DNA from: Symbiotaphrina buchneri
Taxonomy: Eukaryota; Ascomycota; Symbiotaphrinales; Symbiotaphrinaceae
NCBI GenBank assembly: GCA_001599915.1
Contig: BCIG01000018.1
Span: 496,001 to 560,000, forward strand
DNA length: 64,000 nt
Reading direction: 5' to 3'
Part shown: in pieces, positions 1,178 to 64,000 of the stretch
How the letters are laid out: each line of letters begins with the position of its first letter
Numbering within the stretch: the first letter of the stretch is position 1
The notes under the pieces: generated by a model
Told to the model about the DNA's origin: nothing
The model's database searches: none
Seen by the model: the letters and a program-made list of their open reading frames with translations, nothing else
Program-made: the position numbers and the translations under genes

Positions 1178-2925
<1,748 letters not shown>

Positions 2926-8375: not shown

Positions 8376-11300
8376 CTAGACACCGTCGACATCGCTGATG
8401 GCAAGGCCGTGATTCTCTGTCGGAATCTCAGGAGTCGCTCCGTAATCCACATTTTCTTGCTGAGCGGCCGCTTGCGCTGAGACGATCTCCGCAATGCGTT
8501 TCACACGAGGTGTCTGGAGCCCTAAGATGGGATTAGCTTGTCCTATGATATCTAGCAGGGTAAAAGGCGCCTACAAGAAGGAGTGTATGTCTCGAGCGCC
8601 GTAATGGCCCGAGGTTCTGCGATCTCGTACGGACCGCTGTCGTCCATGTCGACGGCAGCAAGGAGCAGAACATCGCTCTTTTCTGTCACTCGAGAAGCTA
8701 CAGCTTTCATTATTTCCCCGTTGATGGGCTGTTCGTAATCGGCTACAAGGTATTGATTGAGTAGTTTCTGTATCTGGTTCGGTGAAAGCCTATAATACCA
8801 TGTAAATAAGCGAATAACCAGCATAGAAGAGTGATAGAGCATGCTTACATCCAACATATGTCTTGGATGATTTCGATGTCGTTCAATGTTGCTTTCTTGA
8901 GTTGCAACAACTTCGTAGCTTGCTGAGGAGCAGTTAGTATCCGGTACCATGGATGATGATAAGGAGAAGGAAGAAGGACGCACCATCAGGTGTTCAAGTT
9001 GCAAAGTCCCTTCCGGCATGTCGTGACTTTTACACCACTCCTCAATGCGTGTGATGTTATAGTTAATCTGCAAACCTCTTTTCCACGACAAGAAATTCCT
9101 TCTCATAAGAAGATCGTTGAACGCTGTCACGCCGACAAGCCTTAACAGTTCTGTCACAGTCTGTGTGATAATTGAGTCCTCCAGATAATACGCCTTCATG
9201 GCTTTGAAGACATTGTTTAGCAAGCTCAATAGATTGTCCATGCTAAAGGCCGGGGTAGAGCTGGACTGCAGCAACTTCCCCAGAAATCTGTTGCTCTCAT
9301 TCGTCACAAACCCAGGCAGGCTTTGAGATTCGATGATAGCGGGTACTATCATCTTGTGTAACTTTTTCTTCAAGACTTTCATCCAGGTGTGGTAAATATT
9401 GAACTCGAGACTTTCCAGGTCATGCTTCGCGATCTCGAGGAGGCGGTCATATTCGTAATTTTCGGTCTTCTGAGCCACATACCAATCTTCCGCCAGGAAA
9501 ACGAAGGACAGCATCTCATGCACATTCGATAGCCAGAATGCTCCAGGGTTTATGGCCTCGTCGCCATCATGCTGCATAACTTCCTGCTGGATGCACTGCA
9601 TGACAGTTGCTAGGAAACGCTCAGATTCTTTTACAAATCCATTATTCCACATCTCTGACGTGACAAGATTTATGAGGTACGCAGGGAATAGAACCTCTTT
9701 CTCCATGGGTGGGGGAGTAGTGCCCGGAGCAGGAATCCTCAGATTTCTTATCAGGCCCATGGTCACCTCTTCATTCAGTCCCTCTTCATCTGCCAACAGG
9801 ATCTCAAGCTCCATTTCCACATTGTCAAAAGCAGGGCTGAATGTCGACCCTGACAGATTCTGGCGATGGAGATTTGTCCCAGTGACAGCCATGGAAACGG
9901 GCCGCGGATTGTACGCCCCGCTGAGACGGTCGGTGTCTACACGCTCGGCACCCGCGCTCCGTCTCTTGGGCTTTTTGGAGGACACCAGGTTGATGAGGCC
10001 GTTGGTTGGAGCCTGATTGATCACACCATTTTGCAAATCACCGTTGACCGGAACTGCGCGACGTGCCAGCTCCAATTGATCCTGGAGCTCAGCGAGCTGC
10101 TGCCGCAGAGATGCCTTTTCACCTTCGTGGACCTGGCCTGCCTGCTTCGCTTTCTCCAGCTCGAGGGACGTGACCCTCAGGGATTCTCTAAGCACCTTCT
10201 CTTCGGCTTGCAGCCGTTTCACATTAGCGGAGGATTCCTCAAAGTTTTGCTGCACTTTACGCAGCTCATCTTCCATAGCTGCTAGACGAGCCGCTGCTAT
10301 GCCGGCTTGGTTAGCTTCGGCCTGCAGCTCTTTGGATCTAGTTTCCAGGGCATTATGGCGCTGTTTCCAGGATTTGAGTTGATTCTCATAATTCTCGACC
10401 TGGGATGATAGCGTCCTGTTCTCCCGCTTCATGGTACCGAGCGATTGTGTAAGCTCCACAACCTTGTTCTCAAGCTTATAGGAGATTTGCTTCAGATCGC
10501 GGGCTTCCTCGCGAAGTGATTTGTAGGCTCGGCGAGCTTGCTTCCCCCTCCAGAGATTCTGTATGATGACGACTTTTCGGCGATATTGTCTCCAAGATCG
10601 CATCTGTCTTCTTGACCTCCAAGTCCTCTGGATTGCGATTGCAGCGTTGCCCACTCGTGTATCCAGTATTGCCCTACGACAGAGATACCCTTTCGCCGCG
10701 GCCTGGAAACGGATCGTGCTGTTCCTGACGCAGTAGTACTTCTTTCTCTCCGTGTAGCCGCGCCATGATTTTTGTATTGTTGTCGCAGCCTTCGTGCGTC
10801 GAGCGTCTTCTGCTCTTCTGCGGGCGAGATGACCCCTGACTGTTGCTTGAAATAAGAGAATGGAACTCCTAGCTTCCAGATACTTCCGCCGATAATACTT
10901 GCACCGGAGGTTCTTCTGGATCATGATCGCGCAATCATTCAATCTGGAAGTACGGAGATTCTCTAGAAAAGCAAGCATCCCCGCACGGAAGAAGATTTTC
11001 GTAAGTCCAAGTTGATACTTATCTAATTCTTTGTTGGTTCCAGCACCCAGCGCTCGACTGAGAATCGTATTGGCCATCTCACGGATTTCAGAAGTCCAGG
11101 CTGACGACGGGACGAGCATGTAGTATCGCAGAGCAAACTCTTCATATGTCCAACGAGTGGGATAACCGGCGCAACTAATGCGAACGGTCTCCAGAACCCC
11201 ACATGCGCGAAGCTGGCTCAGCACCATTGGTCCTTCGAACTTCCATGGCTCTTTGCCCTCATTTGGCTTGATACAGCGTATATAATGTACATCGGTCGAA

Positions 11301-13459
11301 TTGATCGTCTGCATCAGCTCGATGAGCGAGGATTTGAAAATACCGCCCAGCGTAGGCTTTCGAGCGACTGCAACGCCGATGCGGCGGCCTGGAGCGGCCA
11401 CCGCGCGAGATGACGCCACCGCTGCCGAGTCTTTTTCTCGCACCGCGGATGCTGCATCCAACACTTCGCGCAAGAATTTATTAGAGGAAGCCTTTAACAC
11501 TTCCATATGCTCATCTGGCACTGTATCACGGTTCTTATCTATGAAGCCATCCGACTCGTACGTAACATCGACAGCGTAATGGCACACATTAAATGCCGAC
11601 TTTCCAAAACGGGGTTTCTTGTAGAACCTGTTCTTGTCGCCAGCAAAATTGTGATGCAACTTCGTCACGAATTGTTCATCAGAGCCCATAGGCAAGCGTG
11701 ATTCCTCATCAAGCAGAGCTAGTATTCCCAACTTGCCCTCGATGAGATCAATGCAAGGCTGGTTGTCCGAGAAATCGATGAAAGTCCAGTCAATCTGCTC
11801 CCGTAAATATTCTTCCTGCTCCAGCTTGAAGACGTGTTGATTGAACTCTTGTTGTAACTTCTCATTCGCATAATTAATGCAGAATTGTTCGAAGGAATTC
11901 TTCGCAAAGTGCTCGAACCCGTAGATATCCAACACTCCGATGAAAGAAATAACTCGGCTCAGCACATCTTCTGTGGCAAGACTGTGATTGATGACGTCGA
12001 CCAGCCAGTCGAATAGGCTGGAGTAGATGAACTTTGAGACAGAATCTCGCACGACGAAAGCTTGCTGTTGCGTGAGATTCGACATTATCTTCTCGCCGCG
12101 CGTAATTAGCTGCTTCTTGACAGTCCATTTCGCAAACTCATTTGCATCTATCCCAAGCATCTTACTTGCTCGAACCAGGGATGGCTCGGTGGGTGAAAGA
12201 ACAGAGTCCGTGCGTGAAGCTGTTATCTTGACGTTTCCTAAGTGCAGAAGAGCAGCCAGGATTCGGAAGATCTCAGCCTGTTTCTCCTGGCTGACGCCAA
12301 TCGTTGACAAAGAAGCCCGCGTGGCTTGTAAATCAGCCTTGTCATCCACCCCTTCTATGACTGGAGAACCCCCTTGATTTAAGTAATCGAAATGCTCGAC
12401 GGGAACCAGTCCCAGTTCCTCGCGCTCCTGCTCGTTGGCACCGGCTACTAATTGGTAGAAGATATGATAATTCCTTTCCTTTAGCGGCTGAAAGACGAGC
12501 CTAGAACGCTCAAGCAGATATGTCCTTATCCTGGCTCCTATGATCTCCGTTCTCTGATCGAACATTATCTCGATATACTTTCCGAAACGGGACGAGTTGT
12601 CGTTCCTCGTAGTTTTGGCATTCCCGAATGCTTCCATAATAGGGTTTGTGGCAAGTATCTGTTCTTCCGTCTCGCTCATAGCGTCAGCCCGACCTTTCGA
12701 TCGCTTTCCGGGCTGATCCGAAGACTCTCTGGTCGCAAAGTATCTCATAATGTACTTCGCACTGACTGTCTTCCCCGCCCCAGACTCGCCAGACACTACA
12801 ATGGTCTGATTCTTTTTGTCACGGAGCATGTCCCTGCTACCAGTCAGAAACAGTTGTACATTATTGTTGAAAAAGTGCATACGCAAAGGCCTCTTCTGCT
12901 ATAGCGAACAGATGAGGCGCCTGTGAAGACCTTTGCTTTCCAGCATAGACTTGAACCATGCCCGGTACGTAGAGAGAATCGACCCTGGCGAAGGGATTAG
13001 TGGCTATCAAGACGATGCCACTGTATGTATATATTTCTTTCTGCGCATAGCGCAGCCGGATGGCTTGTAGAACTAGAGCCAACCTTCAGCTTTCCACAGA
13101 CCTTCAGGCTCAAATTCCGAGGCATACCTGCAGGCTCGTTCAGATGTGACAGGTTGGTCAGGTCATCGCTGGCTTCCAGCATGGCCGGGTTCATGAGCGG
13201 TGGGAGGCTGCCATTGGCATGGTCTTGCAATGCCCCTACTGTAGTCTCTATTGTTTTCGACTTCAAGGGTGAAGTACCTCAGCACTCAAACGATCCATAC
13301 ATCAGGGGTTGAGGGAAGACCCACTTGACCGTTGGCCAACTGAAGAACTAACTTGACTTTGTCTCCTTCCACAACCTTATCCCGCACTTCTGAGGCAATC
13401 CAGCCTTCAGTAGGGTCGGGCTGCCATGCCCTGGTGCCGACATCGTAGCTGTGCGCCAT
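8376..13459 (-). CDS. MYO2: Class V myosin heavy chain (Myo2/MyoE type)
   Basis: Actin-based motor that carries secretory vesicles and organelles to hyphal tips. Seven exons on the minus strand (13325-13459, 13128-13260, 12883-13072, 8984-12836, 8849-8922, 8575-8789, 8376-8521) join in frame to 1581 residues. It starts MAHSYDVGTRAWQPDPTEGW, as fungal Myo2 proteins do. The motor has the P-loop GESGAGKT, switch I NAKTTRNDNSSRFGK, switch II DIYGFEHF and the actin-binding CIKPNE region. Six IQ-like repeats follow (for example IQKSWRGYTERKKYY), then a coiled coil and a C-terminal cargo-binding DILUTE domain ending near MDDSGPYEIAEPRAITALETY. The three C-terminal introns are fixed by the family sequence EEWCKSHDMPEGTLQLEHLM continuing into QATKLLQLKK. 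The protein looks intact. Confidence 0.96.
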
Positions 13460-14942: not shown

Positions 14943-16403
14943 ATGTCGGAACCTATTCGCAACAAGAAGCTGGACCTGCCTACCGCACCGTGAGTGCTCT
15001 CCCCGATTCATGGCCTCACTGTTCTTCTGGAACTGACGCGGAAATTTTATCGCAGGACGCCACAAAACACTCCTGCCACCAATGCTCCAATCTCATCTCA
15101 TGCGCAACAGCCAGGAGTATCCAGCATCAAGGAAGGTATGTGCCACCCATCTGGTCCTATAGTGTCTCAAGGGACGCTGACTGACTCGGACATATTTGCG
15201 TCCAGAGGACTTTGATCGTGCGGCAGCGGCATCCATCTTTGCACAGAACCCGCAGCTAGTGTCCATGATCCAAGGTAAACTTGGGTCATTAGTTGGACGC
15301 TCCTCCGGCTATATTGAGTCTCTACCAGCTCCAGTTCGCCGTCGTGTGGCCGGTCTGAAGGGTGTTCAAAAGGAGCATGCTCAACTCGAAGCCGAGTTTC
15401 AGGAAGAAGTTTTGCAACTGGAGAAAAAGTATTTCGCCAAATTCACTCCACTTTACGAGCGACGTGCCAAGATCGTCAATGGTGCGGAAGAACCTAGTGA
15501 GGAGGAGGTGAAAGCTGGGGAGAGCGAGGAGGAAGGTGAAGAGGTTGCGGCCACCGAAGGCGAGAAAGAGGAGCAGGCAACAGAGGACCCGCGCGGTATT
15601 CCGGAATTCTGGTTGTCAGCTATGAAGAACTCCGTCTCTCTCGCCGAGCTCATCACCGATCGGGATGAGGCTGCTCTCAAATTTCTGACGGATATCCGGA
15701 TGGAATATCTTGATCGGCCCGGGTTCCGCCTGATCTTCCACTTTGCCCCTAATGAGTTTTTCAGTAACGAGACCATAAGCAAGACTTACTACTACCAAGA
15801 GGAGAGCGGATATGGTGGAGATTTTATCTACGACCATGCTGAAGGGGATGTGATCGACTGGAAACCAGGAAAGGATCTGACAGTGAGGGTTGAGAGCAAG
15901 AAGCAGAGGAATAAGAGTAAACAGCCCTTCTACGTGGTTTTTTCGTACCACCTGTGACAGTAACTGACTGCTAGCAACAGATACGAAGCAGACTCGTGTT
16001 GTCAAGAAGACGGTGCCCACCGAATCTTTCTTCAACTTCTTTTCGCCTCCCAAGCCTCCAACTGGCGAGGATGATGACGTTGCTTCAGATATAGAGGAAC
16101 GTCTGGAGCTTGATTACCAACTTGGGGAGGACATCAAGGAGAAACTCATCCCTCGAGCTATCGATTGGTTCACAGGAGAAGCTTTGCAATTCGAGGAGCT
16201 GGATGAAGACCTCGAGGAAGGGGATTTTGAGGACGAGGACGATGAGGATGAGGATGAGGACTACGACCATGACGATGACGAGGAGTCGGAGGACGAGGTA
16301 TGTTGAATTAACCCGCCAGATAACTCTCATGTCCTAGACCTGACACGTCCAGGATGATGGCTCAAAGCCTAAACAGGAAGCAGCAGAATGCAAACAGAGT
16401 TGA
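14943..16403 (+). CDS. NAP1: Nucleosome assembly protein 1
   Basis: Histone H2A-H2B chaperone that also shuttles histones into the nucleus. Five exons (14943-14989, 15056-15135, 15206-15916, 15981-16297, 16353-16403) join in frame to 401 residues. The NAP domain runs from about residue 45. It has the long dimerisation helix ([20 protein letters not shown]), an acidic insert, and [12 protein letters not shown], followed by [13 protein letters not shown] very acidic tail of Asp/Glu follows, as in yeast Nap1. The last 51-nt exon encodes [16 protein letters not shown]. The ending CKQS resembles a CaaX prenylation box, as in animal NAP1 proteins ending CKQQ. If the final intron is retained, translation stops after two codons (VC) and the CKQS end is lost. 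Confidence 0.95.
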
Positions 16404-19754: not shown

Positions 19755-22700
19755 ATGAATGGTACAGGTGAAACGCCTGTGCAGCGGCCGCGCCGCAGCA
19801 GCTCGCGCGTCACTGCTCAAAGCAGCCAGAGCTATGGACAACTATACCGCCGTGATTCCAACAGGAGCACGTAAGCTCTGCCCTATCAGTTCTCACTCGA
19901 TGAAAGAATTGGGTTTGCTGACTCCCTCAGTGCTAGTTTCATCAGCGATGTGGAGATGGCTCATGACGAGGTGAACTACCGGGACACTTTACTTCGTTCA
20001 AGTTGTCTTTGGAGCTGATGTGCCTACACAGGTCTTTGCTGGGCCTATTTCGGAGAGTGTGCCATCAAGCACAACAGGCTTTGCGCATCGTCGGTCGAGG
20101 GCCGATTCTACAGCCAGCTTCACATATTTCCAAGAAGAAGAGGATGCGTTCAATTGGTCCGGAGATGATGAGGCAGTGTTTGACAGTGAAGATGAAGATC
20201 AACCGACGGCACTCGAAGTTGATCCTGAAGCAAATGGACACGATGGTGAAAGACGCAGGTCCTCCGTCCGTTCGGGGGTTTCAGCTGAGCATCCGCTGTT
20301 GGCCCGGAATGATTCCGCCAAGACCGATACCAGCGGACATGGCAGGGTCGGCCGCTTGAGTCAGAAGTTGTATATTTCAACAGAAGATTTGACTATAGTC
20401 ATTGCGGGCTTTACGACCAGTTTCGTTGGGTACGCGATTTACCTGGTTCTGTGTCTGACAACTTTTGGATTGGGTTTCCTCATGTTTCGTTGGCTCCCAC
20501 GCTGGAGGGTGCGACTCTTAGGACGGCCCACCTCTTTAAGGTACTGCTCCTGGGTGGTCATCGAGGTGAGCCTACCGTCCGGGAGGAATCGACCCAAAAT
20601 ATCCGCTAAACGGGGCCAGAACCAATGGGGGGAGTTCACGATACACGAAGTAAAGAAAATACCTTATGGCCGACCTTTGACGACGGTGTTTGGTTCCCAA
20701 GGTCTTGCCCGTTTTCTTGAGCCCGACGAGGACGAAGATCCCATCATCGATGTTCTCGCTTATGTGGATTATCGTTACATCCGTTTTTGCTACCACCCGT
20801 TAAAGGACAAGTTTGTTCTGAACAACAGCTGGAAGGATCGATCCAAATTGGACTGATGTGAGGACAATCCGAACTGGAATCGATGGTGAGGAACAGGAAA
20901 ATAGGGAGCGCGTGTTCGGGAAGAACCAGATCGCAATTGAACAGAAGAGCGTTCCTCAACTGCTCTTGGATGAGGTATTTCTCGCTCGTGATATGCTTGT
21001 GAAAAATGCAACGGCTTGTGAAAGGCCAGAGGCTAAGATATTCCAGGCGTTCCACCCGTTTTATGTTTTCCAGATCGCGAGCCTGATACTGTGGTCACTT
21101 GACGAATACTACTACTACGCTGCTTGCATTTTTGTAATCTCCATGGTAAGTATCATAACGACGCTTATCGAGATGCGCACGGTACGTCCCACTTCCATAT
21201 ATGCTTTAAGTGAAAGCCTAACGAATAAGACCATGAGACGGCTCCAAGAAATATCGAGATTTGAATGCGATGTCAGGGTATTACGCAAGGGTTTCTGTAA
21301 GTCAACGTTTGATTATCCCCGTACCGAGAAGCTGCGCAGGATATGGACTGATGTTCCTGTAGGGCGGTATGTTGCGTCCAGCGACTTGATGCCCGGAGAT
21401 GTATATGAAGTTACAGATCCATCTCTTTCACAATTCCCAAGTGATGGTCTATTGCTGGCGGGAGACTGTATTGTCAATGAGAGCATGTTGACCGGTAAAC
21501 ATGTGCCAATCCATCGATCAGCCTTGTGAATGCTGAAATGATTAGGCGAATCGGTACCGGTATCAAAGGTGCCTGCGACAAACGAGGCCTTGCAGCTACT
21601 GGATCTTCGAGCCTCATCGGTCCATCCGGATGTTGCGAAGCATTTCCTTTTTTGTGGAACCAAGATAATAAGGGCCAGGCGGCCTCAAGGCGACACCGAT
21701 GACGAAGCTGTCGCCCTTGCTATGGTTGTTAGGACGGGGTTCAATACGACAAAAGGAGCGCTCGTGAGATCCATGTTGTTCCCAAAGCCATCTGGCTTCA
21801 AATTCTACCGTGATTCATTTCGTTATATATCCGTAATGGCTATTATTGCATTACTTGGTTTCGTAGCCTCCTTTGTCAACTTCGTCAGACTTAAGGTATG
21901 CGTTCATTCTTTTGGATGACGGACAGGTTCTGACTTATCCTAGCTGGCATGGCACCTCATCATTGTGCGTGCACTGGACCTGATCACTATTGTCGTACCA
22001 CCTGCTTTACCGGCCACCCTGACTATTGGGACCAATTTTGCCTTAGCGAGATTGAAGAAACGGCAAATTTTCTGTATTAGTCCACAAAGGTATGTCTCTT
22101 GGATCATTTACGAACGTGGAAACTAAAGTTGTCTTAGAGTCAACGTAGCCGGCAAGCTTGATCTGGTTTGCTTCGACAAAACAGGCACCTTGACGGAGGA
22201 GGGGCTAGATGTACTTGGAGTACGGGTTGTGCAACGACCTGATAACAGGCGCGTCCTGTGGAAATGCTTTTTCGCAACCATCGCTAATTCATCCTTAGAT
22301 TCAGCGATATTTTGACGGATGCATCCGCTATAGTGCCATCGGCCCCATATGAACTTGACCCCACTGTTGACTACTCCGTACATCAGGCCATTCTAGGCAC
22401 GATGGCGACGTGCCATTCGCTAAGGGTAGTTAATGATGAGCTATTAGGCGACCCTCTAGATGTCAAGATGTTCGAGTTCACAGGCTGGTCATTCGAGGAA
22501 GGGGAGAAGACTGGCCAGTCTGAAGAACAGGAGCAGAGTAAACTATCACCATCTGTCGCAAGGCCGCCGGCGGGGTTCCAATACGTTTCGGGCTCTCAGT
22601 CCGATACTGATAAGGTATGTGGTATCCGAAATGGAAGATAACCCATTGACATCCGAGCAGCGTACCGCTGTTGAACTTGGAATCCTCAAGTCCTTCGAGT

Positions 22701-24825
22701 TTGTGTCTCAACTCCGAAGAGCAAGCGTGATAGTACGACAATATGGCGCTGCCGGAGTAGACGTGTATGTGAAGGGCGCCCCGGAATGCATGAAAGACAT
22801 ATGCAATGCCAACAGTTGTAGGTGTCTCGAAGAGAGAAATCAGCTTTGGCTTGCTGATGCCCAATATAGTTCCGACGGATTATGATGAACTGCTCAACTA
22901 TTACACGCACAGGGGTTTCCGAGTCATCGCATGCGCAGGGAAACACATTTCGAAACTAAATTGGGTCAAAGTCCAGAAGATGAAGAGAACTGAAGCGGAG
23001 TCAGGATTAGACTTCATCGGATTCATTGTGTTCGAGAATAAGTTGAAACCGACCACTACTGGTGTCATTGACGAACTGAGCAATGCTGGCATTCGCAAGG
23101 TCATGTGTACAGGTGACAATATTCTGACGGCCATCAGCGTCGCAAGGGAGTGTAACCTTATTGACCGGAGTGCTCATTGCTTCGTTGCTCATTTTAACGA
23201 AGGTATAGTCTGCCTATCCCAGGCATGTCCAGGTGTTGACAGCATTAGGGGACCATCAGTCGCCTAAAGCTAGGCTTTGCTGGGAAAGCATAGACAATCC
23301 GAGCTTTCAGCTTGATGAGATGACGTTGCTCGTATGCGTTCGCAGTGTTTTCTACTTAATCTCCGCTCTGGCTGATGGCCGATAGCCTTTACCCCCTCCA
23401 GCAGAGGAGGATGCCTCCTTGCCTTACGACATTTCCAATCTGCGGAATTACTCTCTTGCGATCGGCGGCGATGTGTTTCGCTGGATCATCGACTTCGCGA
23501 CGGAAGAGGTGCTCCACAGGGTTAGATACCATTGGCATATGCCTTACCTGGCACTGCTTCTAACGAGATTACAGATGCTTGTTCGGGGGCAGGTATTTGC
23601 ACGGATGTCGCCAGATGAAAAGCATGAGCTAGTCGAGAAATTGCAAAGCATTGACTACTGCTGTGGCTTTGTGGGGACGGAGCGAATGACTGCGGTGCTC
23701 TCAAGGCTGCTGATGTCGGAATATCATTATCTGAGGCAGAGGCTTCAGTGGCTGCGCCCTTTACCAGCAGGATCTTTGATATTTCTTGTGTACCACAGGT
23801 GATCCGGTAGGAACTTGAACTTACTGGTGTCCCACCGATCTTGTACTGACATCATGTAGGGAGGGTCGTGCGGCCTTGGTCACGAGCTTTAGCTGCTTTA
23901 AATACATGAGCGTCTACTCAGCCATTCAATTCACGTCTGTGAGCTTTCTGTACGCATCAGCTTCAAATTTAGGAGACTTCCAGGCAAGTGGCGTCGGACG
24001 AGCGGGCTCGGGCGTCAGTCACTGATTCGTTCCAGTTCCTATTCATCGATCTACTCCTGATCCTTCCTATCGCTATATTTAGTAAGGCCTGCATCTTGCT
24101 TGACTTTTACCGTTCTGACCAGCCGATAGTGGGGTGGGCAGGGCCATATCCGGTGCTGTCACGCAAACGTCCGACGGCAAGCTTAGTATCGCGTAAGGTC
24201 TTGACACCTCTTCTAGGCCAGATCGCCATATGTGTGCTCCTACAGTTTATAGGATTTCAAGCAGTGCGGAAACAGAATTGGTACAATTATTGCATCTCCA
24301 GACGCCGTCTCCCGCGTATTGATTGGTCATACTAGGTACATTCCTCCAAAGCTGAAACACAACAAGTCCAATATCAAGAACTCGGAAAACACCACACTCT
24401 TCCTACTCTCTTGTTACCAGTATATCTTTGCTGGAGTCGTCCTCAGCGTCGGACCGCCTTTTAGAGAGTCCATGACTTCTAACGGTGAGGAGCTTGTGAT
24501 GAAAATGGTAGAAAGTCCGATGGCTAATATCCTGATAGTACCATTCGTCGTCACAATTGTCGTGGCTCTGCTCTTCTCTACGTACATGCTGTTCGATCCT
24601 GCGCACTTCCTGTACAAGCTTATGCAGTTGACCAAAATCTCCATGCGTTTCAGGATGTTCCTCTTTCTCCTGGCGATAGTTGGCTTCGGGGTGTCTTGGG
24701 TCGCCGAGAAACGTCTGCTACCCCGATTGGCAAGGCTATTGGGCCATTTGAAAGACAAGTTGTTTCCGCACAGACGCAAGGTTCGGAAGCGGTACAAGTT
24801 ACTACTAGAGGAGATGCGCTTTTAG
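19755..24825 (+). pseudogene. YPK9: P5B-type ATPase (Ypk9/ATP13A2 family), frame broken at two places
   Basis: P5B ATPases sit in the vacuole/lysosome membrane and in animals export polyamines. About 20 introns; exons read MNGTGETPVQRPRR..., the P5B motif [11 protein letters not shown] in the membrane segment before the catalytic Asp, [23 protein letters not shown] (phosphorylated Asp), KGAPE, and about ten hydrophobic membrane segments. Two breaks are visible. At 20836-20843 GATC is doubled (AAGGATCGATCC where NSWKDPNWTDV needs AAGGATCC), adding 4 bases. At about 23668-23671 one T is missing from GGCTTT(T)GTGGGGACGG, so the GDGAND motif is encoded one frame off. Everything else, including all splice junctions, is conserved. 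This may be a recent pseudogene or two assembly errors; I cannot tell from the sequence. One intron (after NLGDFQ, near 23983) has a GC donor (CAG|GCAAGT). Confidence 0.85.
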
Positions 24826-26468: not shown

Positions 26469-28575
26469 ATGAGGCCTCCGGCATCTCCCAACATGGCCAC
26501 GTCGAGGACAAGCCACGGCGCTCTCATCGAGCCGCAACGAAAGCAATTTAGCAAGGGACAGATGGGAAACAAACCGCTCGAAAGACTTGAGAACGGCCGC
26601 CCCCGTTTCCGCGGGTGCAGTGGCATACATGATTATGAGCTATCGGGAAAGCTTGGCGAGGGCACGTTTGGGTATGTAAAGCCCAGCTTGGGCCGAGGCC
26701 GGGCTGCCTCCACTGACTCGCCATGTACGATCCAGAGAAGTGTATAAAGCTCGGGCGCGTAGGACCGGAGCTATGGTCGCCATGAAGAAGATATTGATGC
26801 ACAACGAGAAGGATGGGGTGAATAACCCCACCGCTTGCTTTCTTGTGTTCGAGACTAACGGGTCTTCTAGTTTCCAATCACCGCCTTGCGCGAGATTAAA
26901 TTGTTGAAGCTGCTCTCTCATGTGAACGTGCTGAAACTGGAAGAAATGGTCGTTGAACGCAAAACGGGTTAGTCATAGCAGATCATATTGCGTACGGGTT
27001 GCTTATCAGTATCTCGTCCATCAACAGAGGGCAAGAGAAAAGCCATCATGTACATGGTGACACCATATATGGAACATGATCTCTCTGGCCTCCTCGAAAA
27101 TCCCAGCGTGCGCTTTACCGAGCCGCAAATCAAATGTTACATGCTCCAACTTCTTGAGGGAATGCGATATCTGCACGAAGTATATCCCGCATGCCCTGAT
27201 GTATCCTCGGCCGGTCGCTGACACAACCGCCGCGAATGTCCAGAACAAGATATTACACCGAGATATGAAAGGTTTGTGCATGACCCCGGCATGTTCGGCG
27301 TGGATATTGACAAATGGTTGCTCAACCAGCTGCGAACCTGCTCATCAACAACAAGGGTATCCTACAGATTGCGGATTTCGGGCTTGCGAGACACTACGAT
27401 GACCCCCCACCGCAAAGAGGGAAGGGTGGAGGTGAAGCTCGTCGGGAGTACACGACGGTGGTGGTGACGCGTTGGTATCGACCTCCCGAGCTGCTCTTAC
27501 AACTAAGGAGGTACACCACAGCTATTGACATGTGGGGTGTAGGGTAGGCCGCATCATCATTCCTTTCTCCTCATGTTTCTAATTGACACCGTTCTCAGCT
27601 GCGTCTTCGGAGAGATGTTCAAGGGTAAGCCGATCTTGGCAGGAAATAGCGACTTGAATCAGGCTCAGATCATCTTTGACCTCGTGGGATCACCTACTGA
27701 AACAAACATGCCGGGTTGGAGCCAGCTGCCGGGGTGCGAAGGCGTAAAATCCTTCGCTCCCCGCCAAGGCAATCTAGCTCAAGTCTTCAAAGAGTCAGTA
27801 TCTGAACCCGCTCGGCTTGTACCTTTGCCTGACCGACTCCTTGTATGATAGACAAGGACCCGCAGCAATATCATTACTTAGCGAGCTCCTGAAGCTGGAT
27901 TGGCGAAAGAGGATCAACGCTATAGATGCTCTAGAGCACCCCTATTTTCGAACTGATCCTTTACCGGCGAGACCGGGCGACCTTCCTCAGTTTGAGGACT
28001 CTCATGAGTTGGACCGAAGGAAGTTCAGGGGCCAAAAAGCGCCACTTCCCCCGGCCCCTGCCGGGGGCACGGTAGGATTGGGGGGTCGGGGAGACTGGTC
28101 TGGCGGACGCGGAACGACGAATGGCTCGCGGCCACACATCCACAGCACGAATAGCAGAAGGCCAGGGCACATGCCGGCTCAGGGAGGATACGAGAGCAGG
28201 ATCCCGGGCGGACATCATCTCGGACAACGGGGGATGCAGCCGGCCGCCTCGACCCATCGACCGCCTTGGTCGCGCGATGGGACATATACTAGAGGAGGAC
28301 CGGAGACCGTCGGCGACGACCGCGAGCGGACGAACTCACGAACGTACCGACCGCCAGGTGCGAATCCGAGATCTACGGACACGTACATACCCAGTTACTC
28401 GGGGGATGGGAGTCGAGGTCGGGTGGACCGGCCTGACCGCGACTTCCACCACTCAGACCGGCGAGAACGGCCACCTGCCGATGGCGGAAGAGGACGGAGT
28501 CGGAGTCCGATGGCAGACAGGGTCACGGAGCGGGATCGGGAACGGGATCGCGAGCGGAATCTCTATCGCCGGTGA
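26469..28575 (+). CDS. BUR1: Bur1/CDK9-type cyclin-dependent kinase
   Basis: Nuclear kinase that with cyclin Bur2 phosphorylates the Pol II C-terminal repeat and Spt5 to promote elongation. Nine exons. The kinase domain shows [14 protein letters not shown] (ATP loop), VAMKKI (Lys), a cyclin-binding helix [12 protein letters not shown] (a PITALRE-like signature of CDK9/Bur1), HRDMKAANLL (catalytic loop), DFGLAR and the T-loop end [13 protein letters not shown]. The C-terminal about 200 residues are rich in Gly, Arg, Pro and Ser/Asp ([14 protein letters not shown] at the end) and lack a fold I recognise, as in fungal Bur1. The start is uncertain: ATGs at 26469 and 26493 are both in frame, and an upstream open frame without a stop extends further. 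Confidence 0.93.
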
Positions 28576-62537: not shown

Positions 62538-64000
62538 ATGGCGTTTGGCAAGCTCTACACCTATCCGGTGCGTCTAATCACTAAACCCCCAATCCTCATT
62601 CGCCTGACCACGAGCTGACGGAGTAAACAGGGAAATCCCAGGTCTCCTGCTATCCTGGCGGTTGCCAAGGCAAACAACCTTGACTTGGAGGTCGTCCACA
62701 CCGAACCTGCCAAGGGCGTCTCAGAGGAATACCTCGAGATCAACCCTCTTGGGAAGGTGCCTGCGTTCGTGGGTGCTGACGGTTATAAACTCTATGAGTG
62801 CATCGCCATCGCGATCTACAGTACGTATCTCTTTTCCCGTCGAGGCATACTGTTCCTCTCTGCCCTGTCGTATCCTTTAGAGTGATGAGATATTGTATCA
62901 ATTTCAGTTATCCCTGTCTGAACAAGCTTGTTGAGATCATTAACTCTGACCTACTCATTCGTACTCAATTGCTGGAACTATCACGCATAAGTCAGGCCGC
63001 AGCTAATCCCGTTTCAGTCACCTCCCAGAATGAGAAGACCACCCTTCTCGGAAAGACCAAGCAAGACTATGCCTCTATTCTGAGGTGGATGTCGTTTGGC
63101 AACTCCGAGATCCTGCCTGCTCTAGGTGGCTGGTTCCGGCCTTTGGTCGGTCGTGATCCATACAACAAGAAGAGCGTCGAGGAGGCCCAGAAGACCGCTC
63201 TGAAGGTGGTCGGTGTCCTTGAGAAGCACTTGCTGGTGTCCACTTTCCTCGTTGGTGAACGGATCACCCTGGCCGATCTTTTCGTGGCTGGTACGATCTC
63301 CCGCGGCTTCCAATTCTTTTTCGACAAGAAGTGGCGCGCCGAGAACCCTAACGTCACCCGATGGTATGAGACTGTCTACAACCAGCCCATCTACTCAGCT
63401 GTTGTCGATAAGCTCGAGTTCATCGACGAGGCTATCAAGAACCAGCCGCCCAAGAAAGAGCAGACTCCTGCGAAGAAGGAGCAAGCCCCTAAGGCTGCCC
63501 CTAAGCCCAAAGCGAAGGAGGCGGAGGAGGAAGAGGAGGAGGACAAGCCGGCACCTAAACCAAAGCATCCTCTTGAGGCCCTTCCCAAAGCTTCCTTGGC
63601 ACTGGATGATTGGAAGCGGAAGTACTCCAACGAGGAGACTCGCGAGGTTGCTCTGCCCTGGTTCTGGGAGCACTTCAACCCCGAGGAATACTCCTTGTGG
63701 AAGGTGGACTACAAATACAATGATGAGTTGTCGCAAATCTTCATGACCTCTAACTTGATCGGTACGCGTGGAGGACCTTCCGCGGCTTTACTATGGTACT
63801 CTCTTACTAATCTTCTCGTAGGGGGTTTCTTTGCGCGCCTCGAGGCCAGCCGCAAGTACATATTTGGAGCAGCATCCGTATATGGCGTTGCTGGTGACTC
63901 CCTCGTGACCGGTGCCTTCGTCGTGCGGGGCCAGGAAGCGCTGCCGGCCTTCGACGTGGCTCCCGACTATGAGAGTTACGAGTTCACAAAATTGGATCCC
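62538..64000 (+). CDS. Translation elongation factor 1B gamma (3' end outside window)
   Basis: Structural subunit of the eEF1B nucleotide-exchange complex that recharges eEF1A with GTP. Exons 62538-62567, 62631-62820, 63018-63761 and 63822 to the window edge. The N-terminus MAFGKLYTYPGNPRSPAILA begins a glutathione-S-transferase-like domain (EEYLEINPLGKVPAFVG; GERITLADLFVAGTISRG). A Lys/Glu/Pro-rich linker (KKEQAPKAAPKPKAKEAEEE) follows, then the conserved C-terminal domain LALDDWKRKYSNEETREVAL, PWFWEHFNPEEYSLWKVDYK and GGFFARLEASRKYIFGAASV. The second intron (197 nt) is unusually long for this window. The last part of the C-terminal domain and the stop are missing. Confidence 0.96.

Follow-up and report, generated by a model that had tools for sequence, protein, structure and literature searches.

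The only P5B-type ATPase gene that we found in the assembly (23.38 Mb in 82 contigs, the basis of all genome-wide counts below) has its reading frame broken at two places, and we favour its interpretation as a young loss-of-function allele in which at least the first break, a doubled GATC, is real. We put the probability of this reading at roughly one half, a weight that is our judgement and was not computed. It is slightly likelier than the reading in which the assembly consensus is wrong at both breaks and the P5B pump of the organism is intact. The gene lies in a 64-kb stretch of DNA (C18:496001-560000), which was analysed as a whole and is called the window hereafter. Its gene content and its short introns point to a filamentous ascomycete. 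Coordinates of the features can be found in Table 1.

A P5B-type ATPase gene with two frame breaks

Each exon was modelled individually by visual inspection and with the help of CtYpk9, the pump represented by PDB entries 7op1, 7op3 and 7op5, which we take, following PMC8233418, to be Ypk9 of Chaetomium thermophilum. The gene model contains 20 introns of 46-72 nt. The gene matches the Pfam families PF12409 (P5-ATPase), PF00122, PF00702 and PF00690, and the P5-specific N-terminal domain is present in the piece upstream of the first break (PF12409, E 8.7e-42). The P-type motifs TGES, DKTGTLT, KGAPE and GDGAND are all encoded; the first three had been noted as in order in the sequence-only reading of this DNA. 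The M4 signature is given as PP(A/V)xP(A/V)x for P5B and PP(E/D)xPx(E/D) for P5A ATPases in PMC5837089; the window gene reads PPALPAT, the P5B form. The best three PDB sequences for the piece between the breaks are CtYpk9 chains. Judged by these features, the gene belongs to the P5B family, Ypk9 type, and the earlier assignment to the Ypk9/ATP13A2 type holds. Vacuolar location and polyamine transport are putative properties of its product. Neither Rfam, at the gathering threshold, nor a tRNA scan gave any match in the 64-kb window.

The gene does not form a single continuous open coding sequence. Its CDS, from the ATG at 19755 to the TAG at 24825, is 3999 nt long and a multiple of three, in agreement with the proposal that the two changes sum to +3. 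Read as given, it encodes 308 aa (303 native and 5 foreign) before the TGA at 20854-20856, with 46 stops across the whole CDS, the final stop counted. The doubling of GATC at 20836-20843 was recovered (GATCGATC is present there), and the second break was located at the T run 23668-23670, before GDGAND, as predicted. The three pieces separated by the breaks (A, B and C; 303, 730 and 332 aa) line up one after another on CtYpk9: piece A ends at residue 347, piece B corresponds to residues 348-1091, and residue 2 of piece C falls at 1093. The pieces flanking the doubled GATC therefore abut, and pieces B and C are colinear. When spliced and read in its own frame, piece B has no stop in 730 codons, for which the chance is about 6e-16 at 3/64 per codon.

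The frame is indeed shifted between the two breaks, over a region that probably covers the transmembrane helices and the A, P and N domains. However, the shifted region would not be translated, because the stop begins 11 bases after the GATC repeat. An imperfect 26-bp tandem repeat (20841-20892, 1.9 copies) starts inside the doubled GATC and may have favoured slippage at this site. No hairpin was found at the first break, where single-strand folding is ordinary (z -0.53).

The gene could also be alive by altered processing, for example if a cryptic 46-nt intron at 20783-20828 restored the frame past the doubled GATC. Such an intron does appear in the path of our composition model when frame jumps cost 18 nats or are forbidden, and introns of 46 nt are present in the same gene. 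Nevertheless, its donor is poor, the stretch to be removed aligns with CtYpk9, so that conserved residues would be lost, and the second break would need a bypass of its own. We consider a rescue of this kind very improbable.

Table 1. Positions of the P5B gene, its frame breaks and introns, neighbouring genes and composition-model calls (window coordinates unless a locus is named)
Feature	Position	Strand	Remarks
P5B-ATPase (Ypk9-type) gene	19755..24825	+	21 exons, 20 introns, CDS 3999 nt, two frame-break sites
GATC direct doubling, first frame break	20836..20843	+	exon 4; flanking pieces meet at CtYpk9 residues 347/348
Premature stop TGA	20854..20856	+	codon 309 of the reading as given
Region in shifted frame	20844..23667	+	spliced, own frame open for 730 codons; carries TGES, DKTGTLT, KGAPE
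T run at second frame break	23668..23670	+	immediately 5' of GDGAND
TGES motif			split by intron 7
GDGAND motif			right after second frame break
Intron 10	22249..22298	+	50 nt, GC-AG, off-consensus GC donor GCGCGT
Intron 17	23984..24035	+	GC-AG, donor GCAAGT otherwise consensus
Two further introns	24082-24129, 24485-24538		recognised only once the C-terminal piece was compared with CtYpk9
Seryl-tRNA synthetase	1178-2924	+	no frame break seen
Class V myosin	8377-13459	-	no frame break seen
NAP1	14943-16402	+	no frame break seen
Kinase, presumably Bur1-type	about 26470-28575	+	no frame break seen
eEF1B-gamma	62538-64000	+	no frame break seen
Explained calls	6237, 6407, 6587, 13081, 19992, 38013; L004:5210, L012:127, L018:1068, L030:6387		
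The nine other calls	52394, 52551, 56519; L003:6885, L004:5449, L008:4931, L011:9254, L030:2434, L031:9783		

Copy number and constraint

No second P5B copy was found in the genome among the 17 candidates, all of which were scored. The sole long second match, considered as a compensating P5B, was rejected: it is a P5A (Spf1-type) ATPase (C5:739112-741178) with 32% identity to the middle piece. Both genes belong to the P5 superfamily, but the P5A gene stays open, with no stop, over a stretch of 997 aa. It is not a P5B replacement, because it reads PPELPME where the P5B gene has PPALPAT. Fungi are described with one P5B isoform (PMC5837089).

CtYpk9 is colinear with the window gene over the catalytic core and the C-terminus; 443 of the 730 residues of the middle piece are identical, and two stretches of the N-terminal region align. 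The pump CtYpk9 is intact and its structure has been solved (PMC8233418), whereas the window gene is frame-broken twice. Human ATP13A2, a P5B ATPase of the same family (e.g. PDB 8iem), can be aligned to residues 5-730 of the middle piece and is diverged, with 284 of 726 positions identical. We used these three sequences, with ATP13A2 as outgroup, for a relative-rate count that stands in for dN/dS and is insensitive to a handful of changes. It gave 41 sites unique to the middle piece and 50 unique to CtYpk9, with 234 identical in all three, and hence no sign of the relaxed constraint that would follow a loss. Any loss would therefore be very recent, since the middle piece evolved no faster than the intact CtYpk9. 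Together with the whole catalytic motifs, this bears out the early description of the loss as very recent, and on the evidence of the compared sequences the P5B gene was maintained by selection until very recently.

Frame breaks in neighbouring genes and elsewhere in the assembly

Among the 24 predictions in the window, ten conserved neighbours were examined, and none of these ten showed a frame break. Pfam domains are continuous in the class V myosin head (2-679 of 679), NAP1 (1-266 of 266) and the seryl-tRNA synthetase (1-107 of 108 and 1-179 of 179). Kae1 and eEF1B-gamma each match Pfam in two stretches, which we read as an in-frame intron retained in the prediction. In Ham1, SerA, Bur1, aspartokinase and Rrp36, doubtful stretches were inspected by eye against the general sequence pattern of the family, and no break was seen.

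Other frame breaks do occur in the assembly, which makes consensus errors a live source of the two P5B breaks. An S6K/AKT-like AGC kinase on contig C11 (67531-68306) has a frame break in the catalytic loop (L034:1143-1350, near 67920). Both halves of this AGC kinase match the same chains, e.g. 6g76, up to and from the break, and an intron would not fit between the two rows (net -1 nt); this break may be either a consensus error or a real event. It was flagged in a count over eight families, in which only neighbouring match rows were compared and a pair was flagged when its rows differed in frame and, once trimmed, were less than 30 nt apart. The 308 rows, with 150,438 profile-covered bases, gave one flagged pair, the C11 kinase; the figure is a lower bound, as breaks near domain ends are missed. 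Candidates were scored in full for TCP1 (24), HSP70 (19) and SNF2 (44), and in part for kinases (127 of 166), DEAD (37 of 67), sugar transporters (9 of 284), MFS (9 of 385) and ABC (19 of 93). A kinase pair on C37, 38 nt apart, was left out as a probable intron.

Three more breaks of single-base type, in coding stretches within 240 kb of other loci, are credible by eye (L002:6971, L008:4443 and L018:2333). The pieces around the L002 and L018 breaks have no usable match in Pfam or PDB searches, which weakens them as examples of error. The motifs that we read there are presumptive, and L002:6971 could instead be a weak 46-nt intron. The 304-kb sample also holds two isolated single Ns, one of which separates an A run from a C run, and a stretch of 692 Ns that may also be masked sequence; none of these lies in the window.

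As an error meter the composition model is weak: it found one of the two known P5B breaks and never called the second. At a penalty of -7.5 it made 23 calls, which by our own reading comprise the first P5B break, the three credible breaks, ten calls for which introns, a gene start or a different open frame can account, and nine others. Eight frame-jump calls were made at -10, including the first P5B break and a false call at 19992 in the same gene; at -14 and -18 both of these were gone and no frame-jump call was left. The coding part of the model's paths came to 35,592 bases for the window and 134,560 bases for the other loci (240 kb).

If the background is one unexplained break per 150,438 domain bases, the probability of finding two in 3999 nt is about 3.5e-4, which rises to about 3.7e-3 if the three unconfirmed breaks are counted over the 134,560 coding bases. 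These values argue against two errors in one gene. They are not decisive, because, over thousands of genes, errors alone should produce a few genes with two breaks. The T-run break had been suspected to be an error; it resembles one confirmed and three unconfirmed single-base-type breaks elsewhere, a fit that does not by itself decide between error and real event.

The doubled GATC as a string

The string GATCGATC occurs twice in the 64-kb window against 1.5 expected, a count reached by 43 of 100 shuffles. Genome-wide there are 541 copies, against about 548 scaled from the shuffle mean of the window, beside 398 of TCGATCGA, 184 of CTAGCTAG and 340 of AGCTAGCT; the GATC phase is thus somewhat commoner than the TCGA phase of the same unit (398). 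The 304-kb sample holds 4 copies against 4.9 expected, and 5, 6 and 5 of the other three phases against 5.1, 4.0 and 3.7. The doubled GATC is unremarkable as a string, because tandem 4-mers as a class exceed the order-3 expectation (1509 against 1185). The significance of GATCGATC lies in its place in a conserved frame.

GATCGATC is also the filled-in DpnII junction in Hi-C, according to PMC6952475, and the doubling could be an artefact of restriction fill-in or of Hi-C ligation (DpnII/MboI) carried into the assembly. The excess of GATCGATC expected from filled-in DpnII/MboI ends is absent both genome-wide and in the 304 kb, so that this origin is very doubtful. The doubling had been suspected to be real from the outset. 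This is slightly favoured by the lack of such an excess and by the ten conserved neighbours without a break.

A short GATC-rich repeat ends a coding stretch at L004:5500-5700. The 692-N stretch lies at L004:8142-8833, flanked by copies of a different repeat.

GC donors

The splice junctions, about 20 of which had been described as all in order, number 40 (20 introns), and they are in order except that the donor of intron 10 is off-consensus. In this intron the conserved frame is kept only with the GC donor GCGCGT; use of the GT at 22253 would break it. GC-AG introns make up 1.009% of fungal introns (PMC7072748), and at this average the occurrence of GC donors in two of the 20 introns has P = 0.017. 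Of the 198 model introns in the 304-kb sample, 2 have GC donors, in a composition model that penalises GC. The GC donors of the P5B gene may be ancestral; that of intron 10 may alternatively be a third lesion.

Discussion

We propose that the P5B gene was under selection until very recently and was then disabled. The doubling of GATC in exon 4 would be a real small tandem duplication that shifts the frame and brings in the stop 11 bases later, so that only an N-terminal product of 308 aa would be possible. Going by the CtYpk9 layout described in PMC8233418, this product would probably retain the N-terminal domain but have none of the ten transmembrane helices and no A, P or N domain, and the broken mRNA would be a target for decay. 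The T-run break could have hit the gene when it was already dead or, with about the same likelihood, could be a consensus error.

Several observations favour a loss, among them that both breaks fall in one gene, against none in ten conserved neighbours; that the 4-bp doubling is unlike the single-base breaks seen elsewhere; and that two of the 20 introns have GC donors, one of these off-consensus, an oddity of substitution type that indel errors do not explain. On the other side, no decay is visible beyond the two indels and the 730-codon piece has no nonsense codon. This weighs against a loss, because a dead gene should gather substitutions too, and the unrelaxed constraint likewise suits an intact gene behind two consensus errors. 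Such errors are a serious possibility that we rank somewhat below the young loss. If they are the cause, conserved genes in this assembly contain indels that break the frame, and pseudogene calls made from it need reads.

In a narrower and more tentative form of the proposal, which we hold to be clearly less probable than a young loss as such, independent hits have just removed the sole P5B gene of the sequenced isolate: the GATC duplication, the T-run deletion and perhaps a weakened donor of intron 10. This would imply that vacuolar polyamine/Mn handling recently ceased to be needed or was selected against, in the organism's setting or in culture.

YPK9 is called non-essential in yeast (PMC3311584), a point in favour of a loss; the P5B gene is an ordinary gene whose loss is tolerated there. 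We found no report of P5B/YPK9 loss or of a P5B pseudogene in fungi in an open-access library, although one may still be described. If the young loss is real, the allele would be a natural, fresh knockout of what is apparently the organism's only vacuolar polyamine/cation pump of the Parkinson-linked ATP13A2 family, and could be used for asking when a P5B pump is dispensable.
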